Of a DNA stretch of 64,000 bases, positions 1,536 to 58,155 are shown piece after piece. How positions within the stretch are numbered: position 1 is the stretch's first letter; every line of letters begins with the position of its first letter. The DNA is from Closterium sp. NIES-65 (taxonomy: Eukaryota > Streptophyta > Zygnematophyceae > Desmidiales > Closteriaceae): contig CANXME010000532.1 in assembly GCA_948144175.1 (NCBI GenBank), forward strand, positions 2,281,001-2,345,000, written 5' to 3'. A program made the translations under genes and the position numbers. The notes beneath the pieces are model-generated. The model searched no databases, was not told the DNA's origin, and was given only the letters and a program-made list of their open reading frames with translations.

Positions 1536-3203
1536 TTGTTGCTGAGTCGAAGTCTATCTGTCCTCCGTCCGTCGGGGGTGAGTGTGCTCTTGGCACGGAT
1601 GTCCTTGAGGACAGGCACGAGGACCTTGAGTGTCTTGCAGCCGCTGCGCCTCATCTCGTGTCCATGCTCCTTGCCCCTGAGGGAGACCCGGATGCTCCAG
1701 ACATCCCGACCCCGCACTCTTACGCTGAGGCGATCGCGGGTGAGTACTCCTCTAAGTGGCAGACAGCCATGGATGCAGAGATGGCATGCCACAGGCACCT
1801 ACGTCGACAAGGTTCCCCCTACTGAGGCGAACATCGTCAGTGGCATGTGGATTTTCGAGGTGAAGCGGCCACCAGGTTCTCCGCCTGTCTTCAAGGCTCG
1901 TTACGTTGCTCGAGGTTTCAGTCAGCAAGAGGGAGTTGACTTCTTCCAGACCTTCTCCCCCACCCCAAAGATGACCACTCTTTGGGTGCTGCTGCACGTT
2001 GCCGCTCAGCGTGACTACGAGCTTCACTCTCTTGACTTCAGCACAACTTTCTTACAGGGAAGCCTGCATGAGGAGATCTGGCTGCGCCTCCCTCCTGGCT
2101 TCACTGGGTCGTTCCCTCCCGGTACCCAGTGGAGCCTCCGGCGGCAGGTCTACGGTCTCCGCCAGGCGCCACGTGAGTGGCACGACACACTGAGGACTAC
2201 ACTTGCGGCTCTTGGGTTTGCTTCTTCGACTGCTGACCCGTCGCTGTTTCTGCGCACTGACACTTCGCTGCCGCCGTTCTACATCCTCGTGTACGTCGAC
2301 GACTTTGACTTTGCTACTGCTGACACTGAGGCTCTTGCCCTGGTGAAGTCGGAGCTGTAGAAGAGACACACGTGCAAAGACCTGGGTGAGCTGCGCAGTT
2401 ACCTTGGCTTGCAGATCACCCGGTAAAGAGCACGCCGCACCATCATACTGACTCAGTCACACATGGTGCAGCAAGTCCTTCAGCGCTTCGGCTTCACCTG
2501 GTCCTCGGCACAGGCCACTCCTCTGGCTACAGGTCACTCGCTCTCAGCTCCACCGTCAGACGAGTCCGTAGAGCCGAGTGGTCCTTACCCAGAGCTTGTT
2601 GGCTGCCTCATGTACATGATGACTTGCACTCGTCCTGACCTCGTGTACCCTCTTGGCCTTTTGACCCGCTACGTGGCTCCTGGTCGGCACCAACCAGAGC
2701 ACATGGCTGCTGCCAAGAGGGTACTGTGCTACTTGTGCAGTACATCAGGCATGGGGCTCGTGCTTGGAGGTAGGAGCTCAGTTGTTCTCTGTGGGCACTC
2801 AGACGCTTCTTGGGTTGACGACCAGGCTACACAGCGTTCGTCACAGAGTTACACCTTCAGCCTTGGCTTTGGTTCAGTTTCTTGGCGTTCTACACGCTCG
2901 TCTTCAGTTCTCAGCTCCAGTTGTGAGGCTGAGATCTACGCCACAGCCATGGCTGCACAGGAGTTACGCTGGCTCACCTACTTGTTGACCGACTTGGGAG
3001 AGCGGCCTCATTCTCCTCCAGTGTTGTACGTCGACAACAAGGCTGCCATTGCTTTGTCTGAGGAGCATAGACTGGAGCACAGAACGAAGCACATCGCTCT
3101 GCGTTACTTCCTGGCTCGAGAGTTGCAGCAGCGTGGCCAGCTTCGTCTGCGTTACGTGGCCACTCGGGCCAACACTGCTGATATATTCACCAAGGCACTT
3201 TAG
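1536..3203 (+). pseudogene. Copia reverse transcriptase-RNase H (degenerate)
   Basis: RVT_2-type reverse transcriptase begins near 1790 (YVDKVPPTEANIVSGMWIF). It includes the motifs KARYVARGFSQ, SLDFSTTFLQG, the catalytic YVDD (about 2293-2304) and the pre-RNase H block TCTRPDLVYPL. RNase H follows with HSDASW, SSCEAEIYA, YVDNKAAI and the terminal ADIFTKAL at 3180-3203. Stops at 2358 (CAG to TAG by comparison with Cop-C) and at about 2425 (TAA) split it into reading frames 1536-2360 and 2463-3203. The enzyme would copy element RNA into cDNA in virus-like particles. This copy cannot make it intact. Confidence 0.9.
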
Positions 3204-6821: not shown

Positions 6822-6945
6822 TGTCAGAATATTATGCTCTAGCTTGTAGTGGGGTGCTCTATAGCGAGTACAACCCTTCTAGGGTTTGCTATTTGTATCC
6901 TCATTCTTGCTAGTGCAGCCCTCTTCTTCCTTCTAAACTTTCTCA
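6822..6945 (+). repeat. NA-1 5' LTR
   Basis: 124 bp from TGTCAGAAT to TTTCTCA. It contains the lineage LTR core TGTAGTGGGGTG, GAGTACAACCCTTCTAGGGTTT and TATTTGTATCCTCATT. Its first 96 bp match the 3' LTR with two differences. The last 28 bp are absent from the 3' LTR. Confidence 0.88.
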
Positions 6946-6957
6946 TGCTATCAGAGC
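6946..6957 (+). promoter_or_regulatory. Primer-binding site of NA-1
   Basis: TGCTATCAGAGC is complementary, with one mismatch, to the 3' end of initiator-Met tRNA (ideal TGGTATCAGAGC). A short palindrome, GGATCGATCC, follows at about 6974. Confidence 0.8.
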
Positions 6958-7036
6958 AGGTCGATCCCCTTGGATCGATCCTGTGGGTGGGCTTAACACC
7001 TCCCTGCTTCCGCTGCAACTACTACCACTACACTCG

Positions 7037-7212
7037 GTGCCGCACGCCCCGTGGCGTGTGGCAGTTTTCTTCCCGCCGTGCGCCCCGAGGCGCGCGGCGG
7101 TTTTCTTCCCGCCGTGCGCCCTGAGGCGCGCGGCGGTTTTCTGCCCGCCGTGCGCCCCGAGGCGCGCGGCGGTTCTCTGCCCGCTGTGCGCCCCGAGGCG
7201 CGTGGCGGGCTT
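7037..7212 (+). repeat. Tandem hairpin array in NA-1 leader
   Basis: About five units of 36 bp. The first has CACGCC-CCGT-GGCGTG (7043-7058), a perfect 6-bp stem with a 4-nt loop. Later units have GCGCC-CCGA-GGCGC followed by GCGGTTTTCTTCCCGCC or GCGGTTTTCTGCCCGCC. The unit resembles a chain of tetraloop hairpins. NA-3 has about seven such units. Cop-D has one hairpin of this type after its primer site. Confidence 0.8.
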
Positions 7213-7590
7213 TGGCCCCGTCAACCGGCGCTTCGCCCTCGGGAGGCGCCGCGACGAGCGACGGGGACCCGTTCGTCGCCCCCCGTCGCCCGTCGTGGCC
7301 TGCACGCGGCCCGTATAGGCAGCGGGCGGCCCGTACGGGCTGCGCCAGGCCAGCGCGCGACCCGTACGGACTGCGCCAGGCCAGCGTGCGACCCGTACGG
7401 GCTGCGCCAGGCCCGCGCACCACCCGTACGGGCTGCGCCAGGCCCGCGCGCGGCCTGTACGTGCGGCGCCAGGCCCGCGCGCGGCTCGGGCCGCCTGCGC
7501 GCGGCTCGGGCGACCCTACCTGCGGCCCTGGCCTCGACCCCGTCGCCCTACCTATTGCTCGGGCCCGTCGCCCTACCTACGGCACCGCCT

Positions 7591-7609
7591 CCCCCCCCCC
7601 CCCCCCCCC
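7591..7609 (+). repeat. C19 tract in NA-1
   Basis: An uninterrupted run of 19 C, followed by TTTTCCCGTCGCCCGTC. NA-2 has 26 C followed by the same sequence, so the tract is an element feature rather than chance. Confidence 0.85.
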
Positions 7610-7859
7610 TTTTCCCGTCGCCCGTCACGGCTCCTTCGGGGGGTGGCGGATGTGTACTATTCCCTGCTCCTCCTCCTCCTCCGTCTCCCTGTGCTGCAGC
7701 TGCCGCTGAGGGGGGGTGGACTTGTTGGAGCCGGTGGAGTGGTACTAAGGGGGGGTGAAGGGGGAGTGGAGCTAGGGGTGTAGCAACGGGTGTGTGTCAG
7801 GGGGAGTGGGATCGTTTGGGAAGCTGAATAAAGGTTGCCGTCGTGTCGCCAACAGCACC

Positions 7860-8050
7860 TGTATTCCGGGGAATTGCTCCGGTAGCCCAGTCGTAGCCAC
7901 CGCCCGTGGGTCCGTTGCTCGTCTGCCGCTACTTTAGCCGCGGGGCCAGTTACTCCAGTATTCCGGAGCGTTGTTCCGGTAGCCGCTGTGCCAGTGTGCC
8001 TCCTGTTGCCCGTGTGTCTGTAGCTTCAGCCGTCGCCTCCTATCTCCTCT
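7860..8050 (+). other. Structured 3' domain of NA-1
   Basis: A non-coding domain conserved in NA-1, NA-2 and NA-3. It contains two hairpins about 100 bp apart, CCGGGGAATTGCTCCGG (7866-7882) and CCGGA-GCGTTGT-TCCGG (7963-7979). Between them are 'ggtagcccagtcgtagcca', 'cgcccgtgggtccgttgctc' and 'gtctgccgctactttagccg'. The domain is duplicated internally: both hairpins are followed by GGTAGCC. An RNA role, for example packaging, is inferred. Confidence 0.6.
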
Positions 8051-8236
8051 CCTCTCACTCTCTCTCCTCCTCCTCACTTGCCAGTTGTGACTACCACTAG
8101 CTTTGCTCATAATTGTGAACTTAAACTATTGCTTCCTTAACTTGTGCTCAGAATGTGTGGTGACATTGTGATCCACCCTGGGCTTGTACTGCTTTGCTTG
8201 CTCTGCTGATTACACCCCACTTCGGCTATGGGGGTG

Positions 8237-8332
8237 TGTCAGAATATTATGCTCTAGCCTGTAGTGGGGTGCTCTATAGCGAGTACAACCCTTCAAGGGT
8301 TTGCTATTTGTATCCTCATTCTTGCTAGTGCA
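8237..8332 (+). repeat. NA-1 3' LTR (short form)
   Basis: 96 bp, ending at the internal TAGTGCA rather than at the TTTCTCA end implied by the 5' LTR and primer site. It is nevertheless followed directly by the GACGT target duplication. Confidence 0.88.
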
Positions 8333-12485: not shown

Positions 12486-12608
12486 TGTCAAATCATAATG
12501 TTGTGTAGGCTGTAGTGGGGTAGCCTGTATGGGGTACACATTTCTAGGGCTGCATATTTGTACCACATTCCATTCCTTAGTGCATTCATTCTCGTTTCAG
12601 TTTTCTCA
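12486..12608 (+). repeat. Cop-C 5' LTR
   Basis: 123 bp from TGTCAAATC to TTTTCTCA. The core motif is GGCTGTAGTGGGGTA, then GGGGTACACATTTCTAGGG, then TATTTGTACCACATT. Confidence 0.85.
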
Positions 12609-28083: not shown

Positions 28084-28219
28084 TGTCAGAATGTTATGTT
28101 TGTCTAGCCTGCAGTGGGGCACTCAATAGTGAGTACAGCCCAACTTAGGGTTTCCAATATGTACTCAACTGCTTGCTAATGAACCTCCTCTCTTCTTCAT
28201 TCTCGTTCTAATCTTCACA
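28084..28219 (+). repeat. NA-2 5' LTR
   Basis: 136 bp, TGTCAGAATG to CTTCACA. It carries GAGTACAGCCCAACTTAGGG and TTTCCAATATGTACTCAA. It differs from the 3' LTR at a handful of positions. Confidence 0.88.
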
Positions 28220-28705
28220 TGCTATCAGAGCATCTACGCTCCTGGCCTGTGGTCCCATCTAACTGCTTCCGCTGCTACTCTGTGTTCGGCACGCCCCGTG
28301 GCGTGCCCCTCGCGCTACTCTTAGCGGACCCGTTGCCGCCCTTCCAGGCCCCTCGCGGCCCCTTCGCGGCCCCGTCGCCGCCCCTATCGGCCCCGTCGAC
28401 GCCCCTTCGCGGCCCCGTCGCCGCCCCTATCGGCCCCGTCGACGCCGCCAGCGGCCCCGTCGCCGACCCTAGTGGCCCCGTCGTTGCTCCTACCAGCCCC
28501 GTCGCCGCCGCCTGCGGCCTCGTCGTCGACCCTAGCGGCCCCGTCGCCGCTCCTATTGGCTCCACCGCCGTCGCCAGCGGCCCCGTAGTCGCCGCCAGCG
28601 GCCCCGTCACCGCCTCCAGTGGCCCCGTCGCCGCCACTTGCGGCCCCGGCCTCACCCTGGCCATGCCCCGTTGCCAGCCGCGGCGCACCGGGGGCACGTG
28701 CACCG

Positions 28706-28731
28706 CCCCCCCCCCCCCCCCCCCCCCCCCC
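28706..28731 (+). repeat. C26 tract in NA-2
   Basis: 26 consecutive C at the same relative place as the C19 tract of NA-1, with the same 3' neighbour sequence. Confidence 0.85.
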
Positions 28732-29019
28732 TTTTCCCGTCGCCCGTCGAGGCGACCTGAGGGGGCCGCACGACCTGGGGGAGGGGGGCGAGCATCGCCC
28801 CTTCTGCCGCCTGTTTTGGCGCCCTGGGAGACCGCGCATCCCCCCCCCCCCCACCCCCCCCCCCAACCTCCCTACCCGCTGTCCTGCCCTGCCCTGTGTT
28901 AGGGTCTGGGGGTGGCGAGTAGGGGGTGACGGGTGTGTGGTCTCCCCTGCTCCTCCTCCTCCTTCGTCTCCCACTGCTGCAGCTAACGCTGAGGGGGGTG
29001 GATGTGTGGGAGCCTAGGG

Positions 29020-29110
29020 TTTAGGGTTTAAGGGGGGTGCTGTGGGGGTGGAGCTAGGGTTTTGAGGGAGATGGATGTGTGTGAGCCTGTGGTTTAGGGT
29101 GTAAGGAGGG
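29020..29110 (+). repeat. Telomere-like AGGGTTT motifs in NA-2
   Basis: AGGGTTTAGGGTTTAAGG at about 29018 and further AGGGTTTT and GGTTTAGGG motifs to 29100. NA-3 has GGGTTTAGGGTTTAAGG at about 48779. This is the plant telomere unit (TTTAGGG) in two copies. Confidence 0.6.
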
Positions 29111-29214
29111 TGCTATGGGAGTGGAGCTAGGGTTTGAGCAGGGGGTGTGTGTCGAGAGGTGTGGGGCAGCTGGAGGAGGTTGGTTGAACGGAGGTTGTCG
29201 TTGTGTCGTCAGCA

Positions 29215-29470
29215 GCACCAGTAGTCTGGGGCGCTGCTCCGGTAGCCCAGTCGTAGCCAGCTGTGCCAGTCGCCCGTGGGTCCGTTGCTCGTCTGCCGCT
29301 AGTCTTAGCCGCGGAGCCAGTTACTCTAGTAGTCCGGAGCGCTATTCTGGTAGCCGCTATGCCAGTGTGACTCCTGTTGCGCGTGTGTTTGCAGCTTCAG
29401 CCGTCGCCTCCTATCTCCTCTCCTCTTACAATCTCGCCTCCTCCTCCTCACTTGCCCTTTGTGAATGACT
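29215..29470 (+). other. Structured 3' domain of NA-2
   Basis: Hairpins CTGGG-GCGCTGC-TCCGG (29226-29242) and CCGGA-GCGCTAT-TCTGG (29334-29350), both followed by GGTAGCC or GTAGCCG, with the same intervening blocks as NA-1 and NA-3. The second hairpin keeps pairing through a G-U pair. Confidence 0.6.
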
Positions 29471-29538
29471 CTAGCTTTGCTCGCTATTGTGAACTCCTGC
29501 TCTATGCCTGCTTACACCCCACTTTGGCTATGGGGGTG

Positions 29539-29671
29539 TGTCAGAATGTTATGTTTGTCTTGCCTGCAGTGGGGTACTCAATAGTGAGTACAGCCCAACT
29601 TAGGGTTTCCTATATGTACTCAACTGCTTGCTAGTGAACCTCCTCTCTTCTTCATTCCTCAATTCTTCACA
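29539..29671 (+). repeat. NA-2 3' LTR
   Basis: 133 bp, TGTCAGAATG to CTTCACA, preceded by CTATGGGGGTG. Confidence 0.88.
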
Positions 29672-47873: not shown

Positions 47874-48003
47874 TGTCAGAATGTTATTCTTATGTTCTAG
47901 CCTGTAGTGGGGTGCTCTATAGCGAGTACAACCCTTCTAGGGTTTGCTATTTGTATCCCCATTTCTGCTAGTTCAATCCTCTTTCTTTCTTCTAATTTTG
48001 ACA
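47874..48003 (+). repeat. NA-3 5' LTR
   Basis: 130 bp, TGTCAGAATG to ATTTTGACA, with TGTAGTGGGGTG, GAGTACAACCCTTCTAGGG and TTTGCTATTTGTATCCCC. Confidence 0.95.
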
Positions 48004-48015
48004 TGGTATCAGAGC
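48004..48015 (+). promoter_or_regulatory. NA-3 primer-binding site
   Basis: TGGTATCAGAGC, an exact complement to the 3' end of initiator-Met tRNA, immediately after the LTR. Confidence 0.9.
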
Positions 48016-48094
48016 AGGTCGATCCCCTTGGATCGATCCTCTGGGTGGGCTCACCACCTCGTTGCTTCCGCTGCAACTGCTACTGCTACTCTCT

Positions 48095-48375
48095 GTGCCG
48101 CACGCCCCGTGGCGTGCGGCATTTTTTCTTCCCGCCCTGCGCCCCGAGGTGCACGGCGGTTTTCTGCCCGCCGTGCGCCCCGAGGCGCGCGGCGGTTTTC
48201 TGCCCACCGCGCGCTCGGGGCGTGCGGCGGTTTTCTGCCCACCGTGCGCCTCGAGGCGCGCGACGGTTACCTGCTTTGCGCGGCGGTATTCTGCACGCCA
48301 TGCGCTCGGGACGCGTGGCGGTTTTCTGCCCACCGCGCACCTTGGGCGCACGCGGCGGTTTCGCGTTCCGTCGAC
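48095..48375 (+). repeat. Tandem hairpin array in NA-3 leader
   Basis: About seven imperfect units of 36-40 bp, each with a GCGC...GCGC hairpin followed by GCGGTTTTCTGCCC-ACC or -GCC. More diverged than in NA-1. Confidence 0.75.
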
Positions 48376-48899
48376 CCGCACGCCCGTCCCCGTCGACCTG
48401 CGTGCGGCTCCTCGTCGCCCTTCGCGGCGGCCCCGTCAACCCGCGCGCGGCTTCCGGTCGCCCTTCGTGGCGGCCCCGTCGACCCGCGCGCCGCCCCTGG
48501 GGACCCGTGCACCCGTCCCCGTCGACCCGCGCGTCACCCTGCGGCCCCCCTCCCCGCACACCTGAGTTCGATTACCGCACATCCGAGTTCGCTTCCCGTA
48601 AGCTTGTGCACGCTTCACGCACACCTGAGCTCGCTTACCGCACACTCAGGGTATGGGGGTGACGGGTATGGGGGTGATGGTTGTGGGGGTGTCGGTTGTG
48701 CGTGCCGTCCCCTTCTCCTCCTCCTTCGTCTCCCACTGCTGCAGCTGTCGCTGAGGGGGGTGGTTGTGTGGGAGACTCGGGTTTAGGGTTTAAGGGGGGT
48801 GCGTGGGAGTGGAGCTAGGAGCGTATCAGCGGGTGTGTGTTGGGGGAGTTGGATAGTTAGGGAAGCTGCATGGAGGTTGCCGTCGTGTCGTCAGCAGCA

Positions 48900-49110
48900 C
48901 CTGTATTCCGGGGGCTTCGCCCGGTAGCCCAGTCGTAGCCAGCTGTGCCAGCCGCCCGTGGGTCCGTTGCTCGTCTGCCGCTACTTTAGCCGCGGGGCCA
49001 GTTACTCCAGTATTCCGGGGGCTTCGCCCGGTAGCCGCTGTGCCAGTGTGCCTCCTGTTGCCCGAGTGTCTGCAGCTTCAGCCGTCGCCTCCCAACTCCT
49101 CTCGCTCTCA
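48900..49110 (+). other. Structured 3' domain of NA-3
   Basis: Two identical hairpins CCGGG-GGCTTCG-CCCGG (48908-48924 and 49015-49031), each followed by GTAGCC. Relative to NA-1 (CCGGA/TCCGG) the innermost pair changes from A-T to G-C on both arms, and this has happened in both copies. Confidence 0.65.
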
Positions 49111-49281
49111 CTCCTCCTCCTCACTTGCCCGTTGTGACCACCACTAGCTTTGCTCATAATTGTGCACTTGAACTTACTTCTTGAACTTGTGCTCAGAATG
49201 TGTGGTGACATTGTGATCCACCCTGAGCTTGTACTGCTTTGCTTGCTCTGCTGATTACACCCCACTTTGGCTATGGGGGTG

Positions 49282-49411
49282 TGTCAGAATGTTATTCTTA
49301 TGTTCTAGCCTGTAGTGGGGTGCTCTATAGCGAGTACAACCCTTCTAGGGTTTGCTATTTGTATCCCCATTTCTGCTAGTTCAATCCTCTTTCTTTCTTC
49401 TAATTTTGACA
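49282..49411 (+). repeat. NA-3 3' LTR
   Basis: 130 bp, indistinguishable from the 5' LTR, preceded by CTATGGGGGTG. Confidence 0.95.
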
Positions 49412-53914: not shown

Positions 53915-54406
53915 TGAAACGTTGCTGGCAGGGAAGTAGCAGCCTTAGTAGGCCAGGAAAACGAGGATAGAGTGCTCTCTGGAGTTCTCTGGAAATTGCA
54001 CTATGACTTCACAAATTTCACAGTACAATTTTATAGAGCACATTCAAATATCGAGTCGCACTCCCAAGTCGCGACTCTCTCTGAATTTCTCAATGGTAAC
54101 CCAACCCCTTTGAAATGAACCTGCCGTGAAATTCAGAGAATTATTGCGGTACGGGATTGGACGGCGAGCTTGGTTACGGGGCTGTAATTCCGTCGGTGTT
54201 GTTGGCGAAGTCGGCGAGCGGTCGGAACTTCGGTGTTCTGCGTTTCGTAATTTTCGCGCGAGGGTTTGTGTTGGGCTGCGCGTCAGGACCTGGTCGCCCA
54301 GCTGCAGGTTGAGGCGTTTGACCAATACGAACAGTTGGTGAGGTGGCGCTTGACTTCCGCCCACCTGCACTGTACTTGGCAGCATTCGGCTGCCACACTG
54401 TTACAT
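53915..54406 (-). repeat. Gyp-1 3' LTR
   Basis: 492 bp, near-identical to 59138-59628. TG...CA ends in the minus-strand sense. Confidence 0.95.
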
Positions 54407-54429
54407 TACTTCCCCCTCCAAGTGGCGCC

Positions 54430-55600
54430 GTCCACGGCGCCAAACCGTGGCTGGTCAAATACTGATTCACAGGAGTTGCGGCACGGTCAAGGTGGCTCTC
54501 TGGTTCCCATGAGTCGTCACTAGTGGGCTGGTCCTTCCAATGAACAAGAAACTCGCGACCATGAGGTGTGTCGCGATGTGCAGTGATAGATGCAACCTCA
54601 AACAGGTCGGGGCTGCCTTCGAACATCGGTGGCAGTTGGCGTGTGGCTGGACGGTCGTGTGAAGGTGCACGGAAAGGGCGGAGGCGCTGGACATGGAAGA
54701 CGGGGTGAATCTTCATATAGCTGGGCAGTTGGAGACGGTAGGTGACTGGTGAGAGGACTCGGGTGATGGTGAACGGGCCAATAAAGCGAGGGGCGAGTTT
54801 TCTGGTTGTGCCTTTGCGTAGGAGAGGTAGGTGGTTAGTGGAGAGTAACACTTGATCGCCAACCTTGAAGCGTATATATTTGCGGTGGGAGTTGGCATAG
54901 TGGGTCTGTTTGGCTTGAGCTTTAAGGATGGAGGTGCGAGCGGCATCAATGGCTGATTCGAGTGAGTTGAGGAACTCAAAGGCTGCTGGTGCGTGGGAGA
55001 GGTGGGGGGGTGGGGTCATGGGGAGGCGGGGGTGCTGTCCGGTTGCGAGGTAGAAGGGTGGCTGGCCGGTGGAAAGGTGGGGTGTGCTGTTGTATGCGAG
55101 TTCGATGGCAGTGAGGTGGAGATCCCAATCAGTTTGGCAAGCAGTAACTTGTGCACGGAGGGAGTCTTCAAGCGTGCGGTTCATCCGCTCGGTTTGTCCG
55201 TCCGTTTCAGGGTGATACGCGGTAGAAAACTTCAGCCGGGTTCCGTGAAGCTTGAAGAGGCTCTGCCAAAAGTTACTCAAGAAGCGGGGGTCACGGTCTG
55301 AAATGATGGCGGATGGGAGACCATGTAGGCGGACTATGTGATCGAAGAAGAGTCGGGCTGTTTCGGGTGCGGTGACGGTTGTGTGGGTAGGAATGAAGTG
55401 GCTCATTTTGGAGAGTCGGTCGACGACGACTAGGATAGCGTTGTAGCTGCAGGGTGTGCGGGGCAGATCCATGATGAAGTCCATGGTGACTTCATCCCAC
55501 ACTTTGGTAGGTGGAGGGATGGGCTGAAGGAGTCCGTAGCGGTTGGTGGTGCGTGCTTTGAGTTGTTGACAGGTGCGGCAGGTGCGTATCAGCATGCATG
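54430..55600 (-). pseudogene. pol: Gyp-1 integrase with chromodomain
   Basis: Zinc-binding end [15 protein letters not shown], core VTMDFIMDLPRTP, VDRLSKMSHFIPTHTTVTA, ISDRDPRFLSNFWQ and YHPETDGQTERMNRTLED, giving the D, D and E residues. Then FKVGDQVLLSTNH, LAPRFIGPFTITRVL and VFHVQRLRPF (GPY/F region), and the C-terminal chromodomain FEVASITAHRD, FLVHWKDQPTSDDSWEPES. It is one frame off the RT frame (shift near 55600). The chromodomain should guide insertion by binding histone marks, as known for chromoviruses. Confidence 0.92.
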
Positions 55601-58155
55601 CGTGGCCAATGGTAGTCGTTGGAGAGGCGTGCGTAGGTCTTCTCAACACCAAAGTGGCTGCCGGTAACGGTGTCGTGGTATTCGGAGAGTAGCAGCTGTC
55701 GTAAGGAGCGATCTGCAGGGACACAAATGGTTTTGGTGACGGTGTTATACCAAAATGGGTCTTCGAATGAGTAGGCCAGGTCCTCGGGTGCTTGCTTGAC
55801 AAAAAACAGGTCACGTTTGTAGGTGCGCTGAAATTTCGTGATGAAGGTATCATCCCAAGTGATGCTGCTGATTCCATGGAGTTGCAAGGGTGGGTTCGGA
55901 GTGTGAGGTGGAGGTGATGAGGTGGGGCTGGTTGGGGAGTGGTGGGGCTGGTTGGTGGTTGGTTTGGGCTGGTCGGTGGGTGGTGGGGCTGGTGGTGGTG
56001 GTGGTCGGGACAAGATGTCGGCTGGGTTGAGTTTTCCGAGGCGGTAGATAATCTGAAGTGAGGGTACGAACTGCTCCAAAAACTCAGCCCATTGGGCTTT
56101 GCGGCGGCTGAGCACAGGCTGTGTTTTCAAGTGTTGAAGAGGGCGGTGGTCGGTGTAGACGGTGACGGGCTGCAGCTCCACGTAACAGCGCCATGTCTTG
56201 ATTGCGTGGACAATGGCAAGGAGCTCCCGATCGTGTGTTGCGTAGTTGCGCTCTGCCGGTTGAAGCTTGCGTGACTCGAAAGCGAGTGGCTGCATCCCAT
56301 GGCCGTGGTCTTGACAAAGAATGGCACCGACAGCGACATCGGAAGCATCGGTCCATATGAAGTATGGGCGTGAAGGGTCGGCGACGGTGAGGACTGGTGC
56401 AGAGGTGAGTGCTGATTTGATTGAGTTGAAAGCAGTCTGCTGCGGTATTCCCCATTGAAAGGCAGCTCCTTGACGGAAGAGATCGGTCAAAGGGGCGCAG
56501 ATGTGAGAGAAGTTGAAAATGAATTTCCGGTAATACTTGGCGAGGCCGATGAAACTTTGCAGCTCCGCTACCGTGCGTGGGGCTGGCCAATCAGCAAGGC
56601 ACTGGACCTTTGCGGGGTCCATAGCAATGCCTTTGGAGCTGATGACATGGCCGAGAAAGCCGATGCTTGAACGGGCGAAGGTGCACTTGGAGAGCTTGGC
56701 GTAGAGGCGGTGTTGGCGAATCTTGTCGAGGACGATGCGTAGGTGCTGAGCGTGTTCCTCGAGTGAATTGCTGAAAATGAGGATGTCATCGAGGAACACG
56801 ATGACAAAGCGGTCGAGGAAGGGCTGAAAAATGTCGTTCATGAGTCCCATGAGCGTGGCTGGTGCGTTGGTGAGGCCGAACGGAAGTACGCGGAACTCGA
56901 AGTGGCCGTAGCGGGTTCGAAACGCCGTCTTGTTGATGTCGTCTTCGGCGAGCCGGATCTGGTGGTAACCGGAGCATAGGTCGAGCTTGCTGAAAACTGT
57001 TGCTTCCCCAAGCATGTCGAACAACTCCTCGACACGGGGTAGCGGGTACTTATTCTTGATTGTGATGGCGTTGAGGGCGTGGTAGTCGATGCAAAGGCGC
57101 AGGTCACCTTCCTTCTTGCGGGTGAAAAGCACAGGGGCAGTATATGGTGAGGTGCTTGGGCGGATGAAACCCTTCTCGAGAAGGTCATCGAGTTGACGGC
57201 GGAGCTCCAAAAGTTCAGCGGTGCTCATGCGATAGGTTGGGCGCACGGGCGGTGTAGAACCTGGAATGAGGCGGATGCTATGGTCAATAGCACGCTCGGG
57301 TGGAAGTTCGGCGGGAAGATCTTCGGGGAAGATGTCGGTGTAGCCTTGGAGTAACTTCTGTATAGGTGATGGGAGAGAGTTGGGTGATGGTTCAAATTCG
57401 GGAGCGGTGAAGATGACTAGGAGATGATGAGGAGGAGGTGGTGATGGAGGGGTGGGGGCTGATGGATTGATAACTTCAGAGGCGGGGCGGATGATGGGAC
57501 GTCGTGGCTGCTGGGTTGGGTGGGGTGGAGAAGGAGGAGGTGTGTTGATCACTTCGGGGGAGCCGGGTGGTGTTGGCTGCTGCACGGGAGCTATGCGAGG
57601 AGGAGGGAGAGGGGGGATATGGGAAGATGGAGATGGGACAGGTTGGGGTGGATGGGTTGATGAAGCGGAACTGGTTGGGGATGACCATGGTCGGCGAAAG
57701 GAGTGGGATGGGAGGTCGTAGTTGCCGACGGTGACAGTTCCGTTGCGCCAATAAATCCGCGGTCCAAACTGGTGCAACCATGGTTGACCGATAACGCCTT
57801 CATACCCGCCGAGGTGCAGTTGCTCGGACGTGACCGTCGCCTCCAAGCTTCCAAACATGCAATGCACAGGGAGGAGAGTAGGTCCGCAGCGCCGCCGAGT
57901 ACCATCTGCCATGATCACGTCCTGCGGGTTGCTGTTGGGATCTTCGGGGAGAAAAAGTTCAGCAGCAATTGAGGGAGAGAGGAAATTTGCTGAAGCACCG
58001 GTATCGAGCAAAAAGTCAACGTAGCGATTCTTTATTTTTGCGTATAGAATGATGGCGGGGAATGGAGCGTTGGATGTGGTGTAGAGTTCAGAGGTGCCGA
58101 TGAATAATGGAGTCGGGAGAAGCGGGGCATGCGATGCGTCAGAGGTCTGCCCCAC
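55600..58155 (-). pseudogene. pol: Gyp-1 protease, RT and RNase H
   Basis: Protease [17 protein letters not shown], a Pro-rich spacer, RT with [33 protein letters not shown] and the catalytic FLDD ([13 protein letters not shown]), RNase H with [35 protein letters not shown] and YTDHRPL, then [11 protein letters not shown], and the integrase N-terminal region [21 protein letters not shown]. All catalytic motifs are present in this long open frame of 887 residues, so the only visible defect is the shift at its 3' end. Confidence 0.92.

Follow-up and report, generated by a model that had tools for sequence, protein, structure and literature searches.

LTR elements that encode no protein are known as TRIMs and LARDs. 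In the passage of PMC4558846 that treats size, TRIMs are below 4 kb and typically 0.5-1 kb, and LARDs are above 4 kb; the corresponding passage of PMC10886601 gives TRIMs as below 1000 bp. The packaging signal is said, where PMC4558846 deals with it, to be conserved in secondary structure only. The relevant part of PMC7215508 already claims that both LARDs and TRIMs have conserved RNA structure. As stated in the portion of PMC4717578 on plant TRIMs, 278 of 289 subfamilies have no retrotransposase-encoding relative, and TRIMs occur in Chlamydomonas, Volvox and the red alga Chondrus. In the titles and abstract openings of retrotransposon literature listed for Closterium, desmids and Zygnematophyceae, no report of a protein-free LTR element was found.

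The DNA analysed here, referred to as the window, is a stretch of 64,000 nucleotides from Closterium sp. NIES-65 (assembly GCA_948144175.1, contig CANXME010000532.1, forward-strand positions 2,281,001 to 2,345,000). Three insertions in it, NA-1, NA-2 and NA-3 of the preliminary description, are labelled E1, E2 and E3, and the protein-free family as a whole is referred to as NA. The element under study is E3. Its parts and its two relatives are listed below in window positions.

47874-49411, + strand: E3 (NA-3), intact, 1,538 bp
47874-48003, + strand: 5' LTR of E3, TGTCAGAA...GACA, 130 bp, same sequence as the 3' LTR
48004-48015, + strand: PBS TGGTATCAGAGC of E3, tRNA-iMet type, perfect match
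48017-48039, + strand: leader hairpin 1 of E3, GGTCGATCC-CCTT-GGATCGATCC
48097-48120, + strand: 10-bp leader hairpin of E3, GCCGCACGCC-CCGT-GGCGTGCGGC, followed by a T-run
48124-48640, + strand: GC-rich leader of E3, hairpin units of ~36 nt in tandem, fast-evolving
48714-49100, + strand: conserved non-coding core of E3, formed by the GCTGCAGCT block and the twin-hairpin block
48908-48924, + strand: twin hairpin 1 of E3 (CCGG...CCGG)
48953-48983, + strand: 31-nt segment, the same in E1, E2 and E3 (4,749 genome sites with at most 3 mismatches)
49015-49031, + strand: twin hairpin 2 of E3
49114-49281, + strand: 3' segment of E3, homologous to the 3' UTR of Copia, with the polypurine hairpin at its end
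49260-49281, + strand: polypurine hairpin CCCCACTTTGGCTATGGGGGTG of E3
49282-49411, + strand: 3' LTR of E3, 130 bp, followed by the perfect target-site duplication (TSD) CCGCC
6822-8332, + strand: E1 (NA-1), parts ordered as in E3, LTRs of 124 and 96 bp, flanks GACGT/GACGT
28084-29671, + strand: E2 (NA-2), parts ordered as in E3, LTRs of 136 and 133 bp, flanks CGCAG/CGCTG

The sequences bear out the preliminary description of these elements as real LTR insertions. The coordinates are exact, and the LTRs, PBS, polypurine hairpin and TSDs are present, the TSDs being perfect in E1 and E3 and imperfect in E2 as had been claimed. The poly-C tracts described for NA-1 and NA-2 are found in E1 and E2, and the fixed order of modules is seen in all three elements. 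We take the primer to be tRNA-iMet from the PBS TGGTATCAGAGC, which is perfect in E3; E1 and E2 each depart from it at one base, with TGC in place of TGG. E2 seems to have inserted into a Copia leader. The 3' LTR of E1 (8237-8332) has 96 bp against 124 bp in its 5' LTR, and its internal CA end abuts GACGT; the same GACGT borders the 5' end of E1, which looks like an integrated cDNA with a shortened end. Inside the core of E3, at 48778-48799, lies GGGTTTAGGGTTTAAGGG, and TAGGGTT occurs in the LTRs of NA and of many Copia elements; both are presumably telomere-repeat-like motifs.

NA resembles the TRIMs in its short LTR pair, in a PBS and PPT that bound a non-coding interior, in the 5-bp TSD and in being free of protein. 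It differs from them in its ~390-nt conserved core and hairpin-array leader, and in its total length of about 1.1-1.7 kb. The preliminary description had placed the elements above classic TRIMs in size; this holds for the usage of less than 1 kb (size passage of PMC10886601), whereas under the usage of less than 4 kb (that of PMC4558846) they fall within the class and are less odd than was claimed. A further difference is that homology of NA to autonomous Copia elements is visible at both ends, in contrast to the plant subfamilies without a coding relative counted in PMC4717578. With LARDs such as Sukkula, whose RNA secondary structure is described as well conserved where PMC7215508 treats it, NA shares a non-coding internal domain, conserved in NA. 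However, NA has only ~1.5 kb in total and LTRs of ~130 bp, against the more than 4 kb given for LARDs in PMC4558846. Cassandra, Helenus and Ajax are also protein-free LTR elements (passage on these in PMC10886601). They contain 5S- or tRNA-derived parts, whereas E3 has no Rfam match at the gathering score: two matches at E up to 1 are both far under it, and a known RNA family was ruled out on this ground. The autonomous Ty1/Copia elements of the host share with NA the LTR motifs and ends, the PBS, a GC-rich leader, the 3' UTR and the polypurine hairpin. They differ in encoding gag-pol and in leaders that, in the five folded, do hardly better than shuffled sequence, and the core was not found in the copies sampled.

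The abundance of the family was assessed in the 874-Mb assembly (2,400 contigs) with reversed patterns as controls. The 31-nt segment of the core, with up to 3 mismatches, has 4,749 sites, the exact PPT/LTR junction 5,355, and the exact PBS/leader 24-mer, with its third PBS base left free, 2,904; each reversed control gave 0. The further copies number in thousands, and those sampled share the core and not the LTRs alone. If each junction stands for a copy of ~1.5 kb, NA would occupy roughly 8 Mb, or ~0.9% of the assembly. The back-translated DIFTKA motif, which marks Copia pol ends, occurs 14,325 times in the genome.

For the TSD test the element boundaries were set by the PBS and PPT, without searching for a duplication. 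A perfect 5-bp TSD was found in 18 of the 27 measured copies, and at least 4 of 5 positions agreed in 20 of 27; flanks paired across different copies gave 4 and 20, respectively, of 702. The sampled locus L001 is E3 itself, so that distinct copies give 17/26 perfect and 19/26 with at least 4 of 5. The boundary rule fails on the shortened 3' LTR of E1, which is therefore counted among the misses. Of the 52 loci, 25 had a PBS or PPT outside the strict patterns and were excluded. In 23 of the 27 copies the identity between the two LTRs is 94% or more. E3 and L002 differ at one of 1,537 sites, yet their TSDs are CCGCC and CGTAC, which points to recent movement of the NA family.

A possible trace of priming is seen at the third PBS base. 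Among 100 listed sites of the 2,904, counted by hand, 93 have C and 7 have G, and neither A nor T occurs. By plain mutation from C, T is expected most often. G is present in E3 and L002, and C in the sister copies L003-L008 and L011. The copies with G would fit occasional rewriting from the CCA end of the primer tRNA. A tRNA-like repeat, TGGTATCAGAGC...GGTTCGAATCCCGG, possibly a SINE, was observed at L053:2533, L016, L023 (minus strand); ARAGORN called no tRNA in these three loci.

NA and Copia are homologous in their LTRs, at the primer site and over the final ~170 nt, where the polypurine hairpin lies. NA thus has LTR, PBS and PPT homologous to the Copia cis parts, and no gag-pol of its own. 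We compared NA with 30 autonomous Copia 3' ends, sampled in the order of the contigs: the 3' segment is matched by 28 (over at least 50 nt), the LTR by 28 (at least 40 nt) and both by 27; L058 has the LTR match only, L053 the 3'-segment match only and L056 neither. A single strict pattern detects the polypurine hairpin in 24 of the 34 autonomous loci. NA-like LTR and leader sequence is also present in the window at 12487, 27535 and 41999-. The Copia reverse transcriptase fragment at window 1536-2360 is best matched by proteins of Closterium sp. NIES-54 and NIES-53, and the 120 matches listed out of 4,230 all carry Closterium names. Gypsy-type proteins are encoded at 54174-58155 on the minus strand, where a chromodomain adjoins the integrase.

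LTR stretches of the sampled Copia elements are 63-78% identical to the NA LTRs. One of these elements, L071, is a Copia copy with LTR stretches 96% identical and 5.3 kb apart. GAGTACA lies at the right distance in 110 Copia 3' ends, and the LTR stretches of the 4 examined are 63-77% alike. Among the sampled Copia there was no autonomous element with an LTR of the NA type and, at 63-78% identity, none that stands out as the mobilising partner.

The profile of the core was compared with the window, which itself contains several more Copia elements, and with loci L039-L076, mostly covering 1.5 kb on each side of a pol end (L070-L072 are stretches of 7.4 kb, and L071 has both LTRs). It matched E1-E3, the NA copies in L060 and L069, which adjoin Copia elements, and L056 (E 9.5e-9 and weaker); there was no other match below E 0.3 in this set, the sampled Copia included. 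A tree was constructed from the last 120 nt and 112 nt of LTR, with 19 NA rows (16 unbiased copies plus E1-E3) and 29 Copia rows. All 19 NA rows lie on one side of a single branch, with the Copia rows on the other (support 100/98; 0 of 500 shuffles); 8 of 37 Copia loci have no row, the row of E1 overruns its short LTR, L058 and L059 gave the same row and are probably a single place, and the bootstrap is not fully settled. The NA copies therefore look like one long-lived lineage and not the product of repeated deletions.

Conservation along the element was measured as pairwise identity in 40-nt windows, with gaps as differences, in 18 whole elements: E1-E3 and copies picked by the exact core 31-mer, a choice that biases the set. 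The identity in the 5' LTR is 0.83-0.89 in the first 80 nt and then 0.44. The PBS and the GC-repeat leader have 0.24-0.77, and the stretch directly upstream of the core has 0.05-0.61 (0.05 being one 40-nt window); the values rise to 0.61-0.97 for the core and to 0.77-0.91 for the 3' segment. For an unbiased set we went along the contigs and took the 16 exact PPT/LTR sites met first, 5 of them already sampled and 11 new. The ~390-nt core is present in all 16. The 31-mer has 7-10 mismatches in 6 of them, and so diverged subfamilies exist. In this set the core windows range over 0.57-0.83, two upstream windows have 0.32 and 0.57, and one 3'-segment window has 0.42. Within the sampled loci the interior is neither random between copies nor recognisable as decayed gag-pol, and on both points the preliminary description stands.

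The preliminary description attributed the conserved interior to selection on RNA structure. The fold of each segment was assessed as the mean z of 8 copies with 30 shuffles each. In the leader, the segment GCrep a has z -7.8 in the sense and -7.3 in the antisense strand, and GCrep b has -3.3; the first 100 nt past the LTR have -1.3 and the 3' segment -0.6. Among 22 NA-type leaders, with L056 included and the E3 sister copies left out, the 160 nt after the PBS have a median z of -5.75, and 21 of 22 are below -2 (L056, -1.8). In 190-nt windows the leader z ranges from -10.7 to -0.1 in E3 and from -7.3 to -2.0 in E1, while E2 is weak, at -1.7 to -1.3 (about -2 in the 160-nt test). Five autonomous Copia leaders gave -3.1 to +2.8 in the same windows, little better than shuffles; a further stretch, W22117-, had wrong boundaries and was set aside. 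The leader hairpins are real, as had been claimed, and in strong excess over shuffled sequence in most copies, with E2 the weak case. They are near-perfect palindromes, which makes both strands score alike, and the fold test does not separate RNA from DNA. The main hairpin unit (27-29 nt) is nearly identical among copies, one sequence making up 35 of 83 units with the E3 sisters included, so that spread of the repeat alone could explain much of the fold excess. Because the units are mostly identical young repeats, the compensatory changes noted by eye are few (L009 and L032). At the place of the 10-bp hairpin of E3 (48097-48120), L032 and L056 have different stems by eye, that of L056 being of 10 bp.

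In the core the picture is different from that claimed. Its two segments have mean z of +0.7 (core1) and +1.6 (core2), no better than shuffled sequence. The covariation check of the twin hairpins gave a divided answer. Pairing is kept: 94.3% of cells are paired in 32 less diverse copies and 90.3% in 43 copies including diverged ones, no shuffle of 500 being as high in either set and slid controls of the larger set reaching at most 52.0%. The covariation score, however, exceeds shuffles in the smaller set (0.102 against 0.074; 1/500) and not in the larger one (0.135 against 0.132; 174/500), and pairs changed on both sides are ordinary in both (110/500 and 91/500). In the 43 copies 11 cells are changed on both sides (1/500), but one slid control has 15; the most diverged type is one column off in hairpin 1 of this alignment, which counts against structure. 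In view of the fold and covariation results together, the claim that selection on RNA structure explains the conservation of the core is unsupported. The core looks constrained as sequence and not as a strong fold. Hairpin loops that might act as kissing sites are palindromic, by eye, in some subfamilies only.

A second protein-free LTR element was found at L056:1559-3020, with an LTR from ~1559 and its own 3' LTR from ~2805. A PBS-like TGGTAGCAGAGC, a leader hairpin, GC repeats and a GCTGCAGCT block follow in order. The GCTGCAGCT block gives the 9.5e-9 match, to the first 76 positions of the core profile, and the twin block is absent. The LTR and 3' end differ from those of NA, and the family is represented by this single locus. 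The leader and GCTGCAGCT block are therefore shared more widely than the twin block.

Several other explanations of the interior and of the origin of NA should be considered. It might be decayed gag-pol or hide a small conserved protein, since open frames of 251 and 280 amino acids cross the GC-rich leader of E3 and 57 of 151 indels in the core and 3' segment of the 18 copies are multiples of 3 (39 of exactly 3 nt), a small residue in favour of coding. However, the two frames have no Pfam match, each of the 18 copies has stops in every frame of the core and 3' segment, 80 of the 151 indels are single-nucleotide, and the three reference codon positions have substitution rates of 0.09, 0.13 and 0.12. 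Core matches in the window outside E1-E3 are also short and weak. An interior without coding sequence, as first described, agrees with these results; decayed gag-pol was ruled out by them, and a coding interior of either kind is hardly credible. Repeated origin of NA by internal deletion of autonomous Copia would account for the Copia-like character of both ends, and the passage of PMC4558846 on TRIM origin presumes reduction of autonomous elements. This origin is disfavoured by the 3'-end tree described above and by a core present in 16/16 unbiased copies and in no sampled Copia, and we regard it as very improbable.

The conservation of the core may be viewed in other ways as well. Recent common ancestry without selection would agree with the many young copies (LTR identity of at least 0.94 in 23/27), but other segments drop to 0.3-0.45 while the core stays within 0.61-0.97 (biased set) and 0.57-0.83 (unbiased set); the repeat-rich leader is not a clean neutral yardstick for this comparison, and ancestry alone seems improbable. 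A constraint at the level of DNA, as an internal promoter or a chromatin or nuclear-organisation signal, is consistent with conserved sequence without fold excess and with the telomere-repeat-like GGGTTTAGGGTTTAAGGG. It is a possible reading, though we would not expect it to be the correct one. Less probable again, and offered as speculation, is that the NA lineage, through several subfamily radiations, evolved its own packaging or dimerisation module from the hairpin-array leader and the ~390-nt core, which would outcompete the Copia genomes whose proteins it uses; the leader design, with part of the core, recurs in the second family, L056.

The reading we prefer, with considerable confidence, is that E1-E3 and their kin form one protein-free Copia-type LTR lineage, an oversized TRIM that would be moved in trans by Copia proteins. 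The mobilisation by Copia is very likely in view of the homologous cis parts. The RNA would be transcribed from the 5' LTR and packaged by the Gag of a resident Copia element. Presumed tRNA-iMet would prime it at the PBS, the plus strand would be primed at the Copia-type polypurine hairpin, and Copia integrase would insert the copy with a 5-bp duplication. More tentatively, the hairpin-rich leader and the conserved core may serve as cis-signals for packaging or dimerisation.

NA is a real and abundant protein-free Copia-type family with an unusually large conserved non-coding core within the TRIM/LARD kind. In our judgement, little is understood of how the Gag of another element selects protein-free LTR elements for packaging. 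With thousands of copies, diverged subfamilies, a core absent from the sampled relatives and abundant related Copia, NA opens this question to direct testing. Desmids are algae close to the land plants, and NA would be an example from them.
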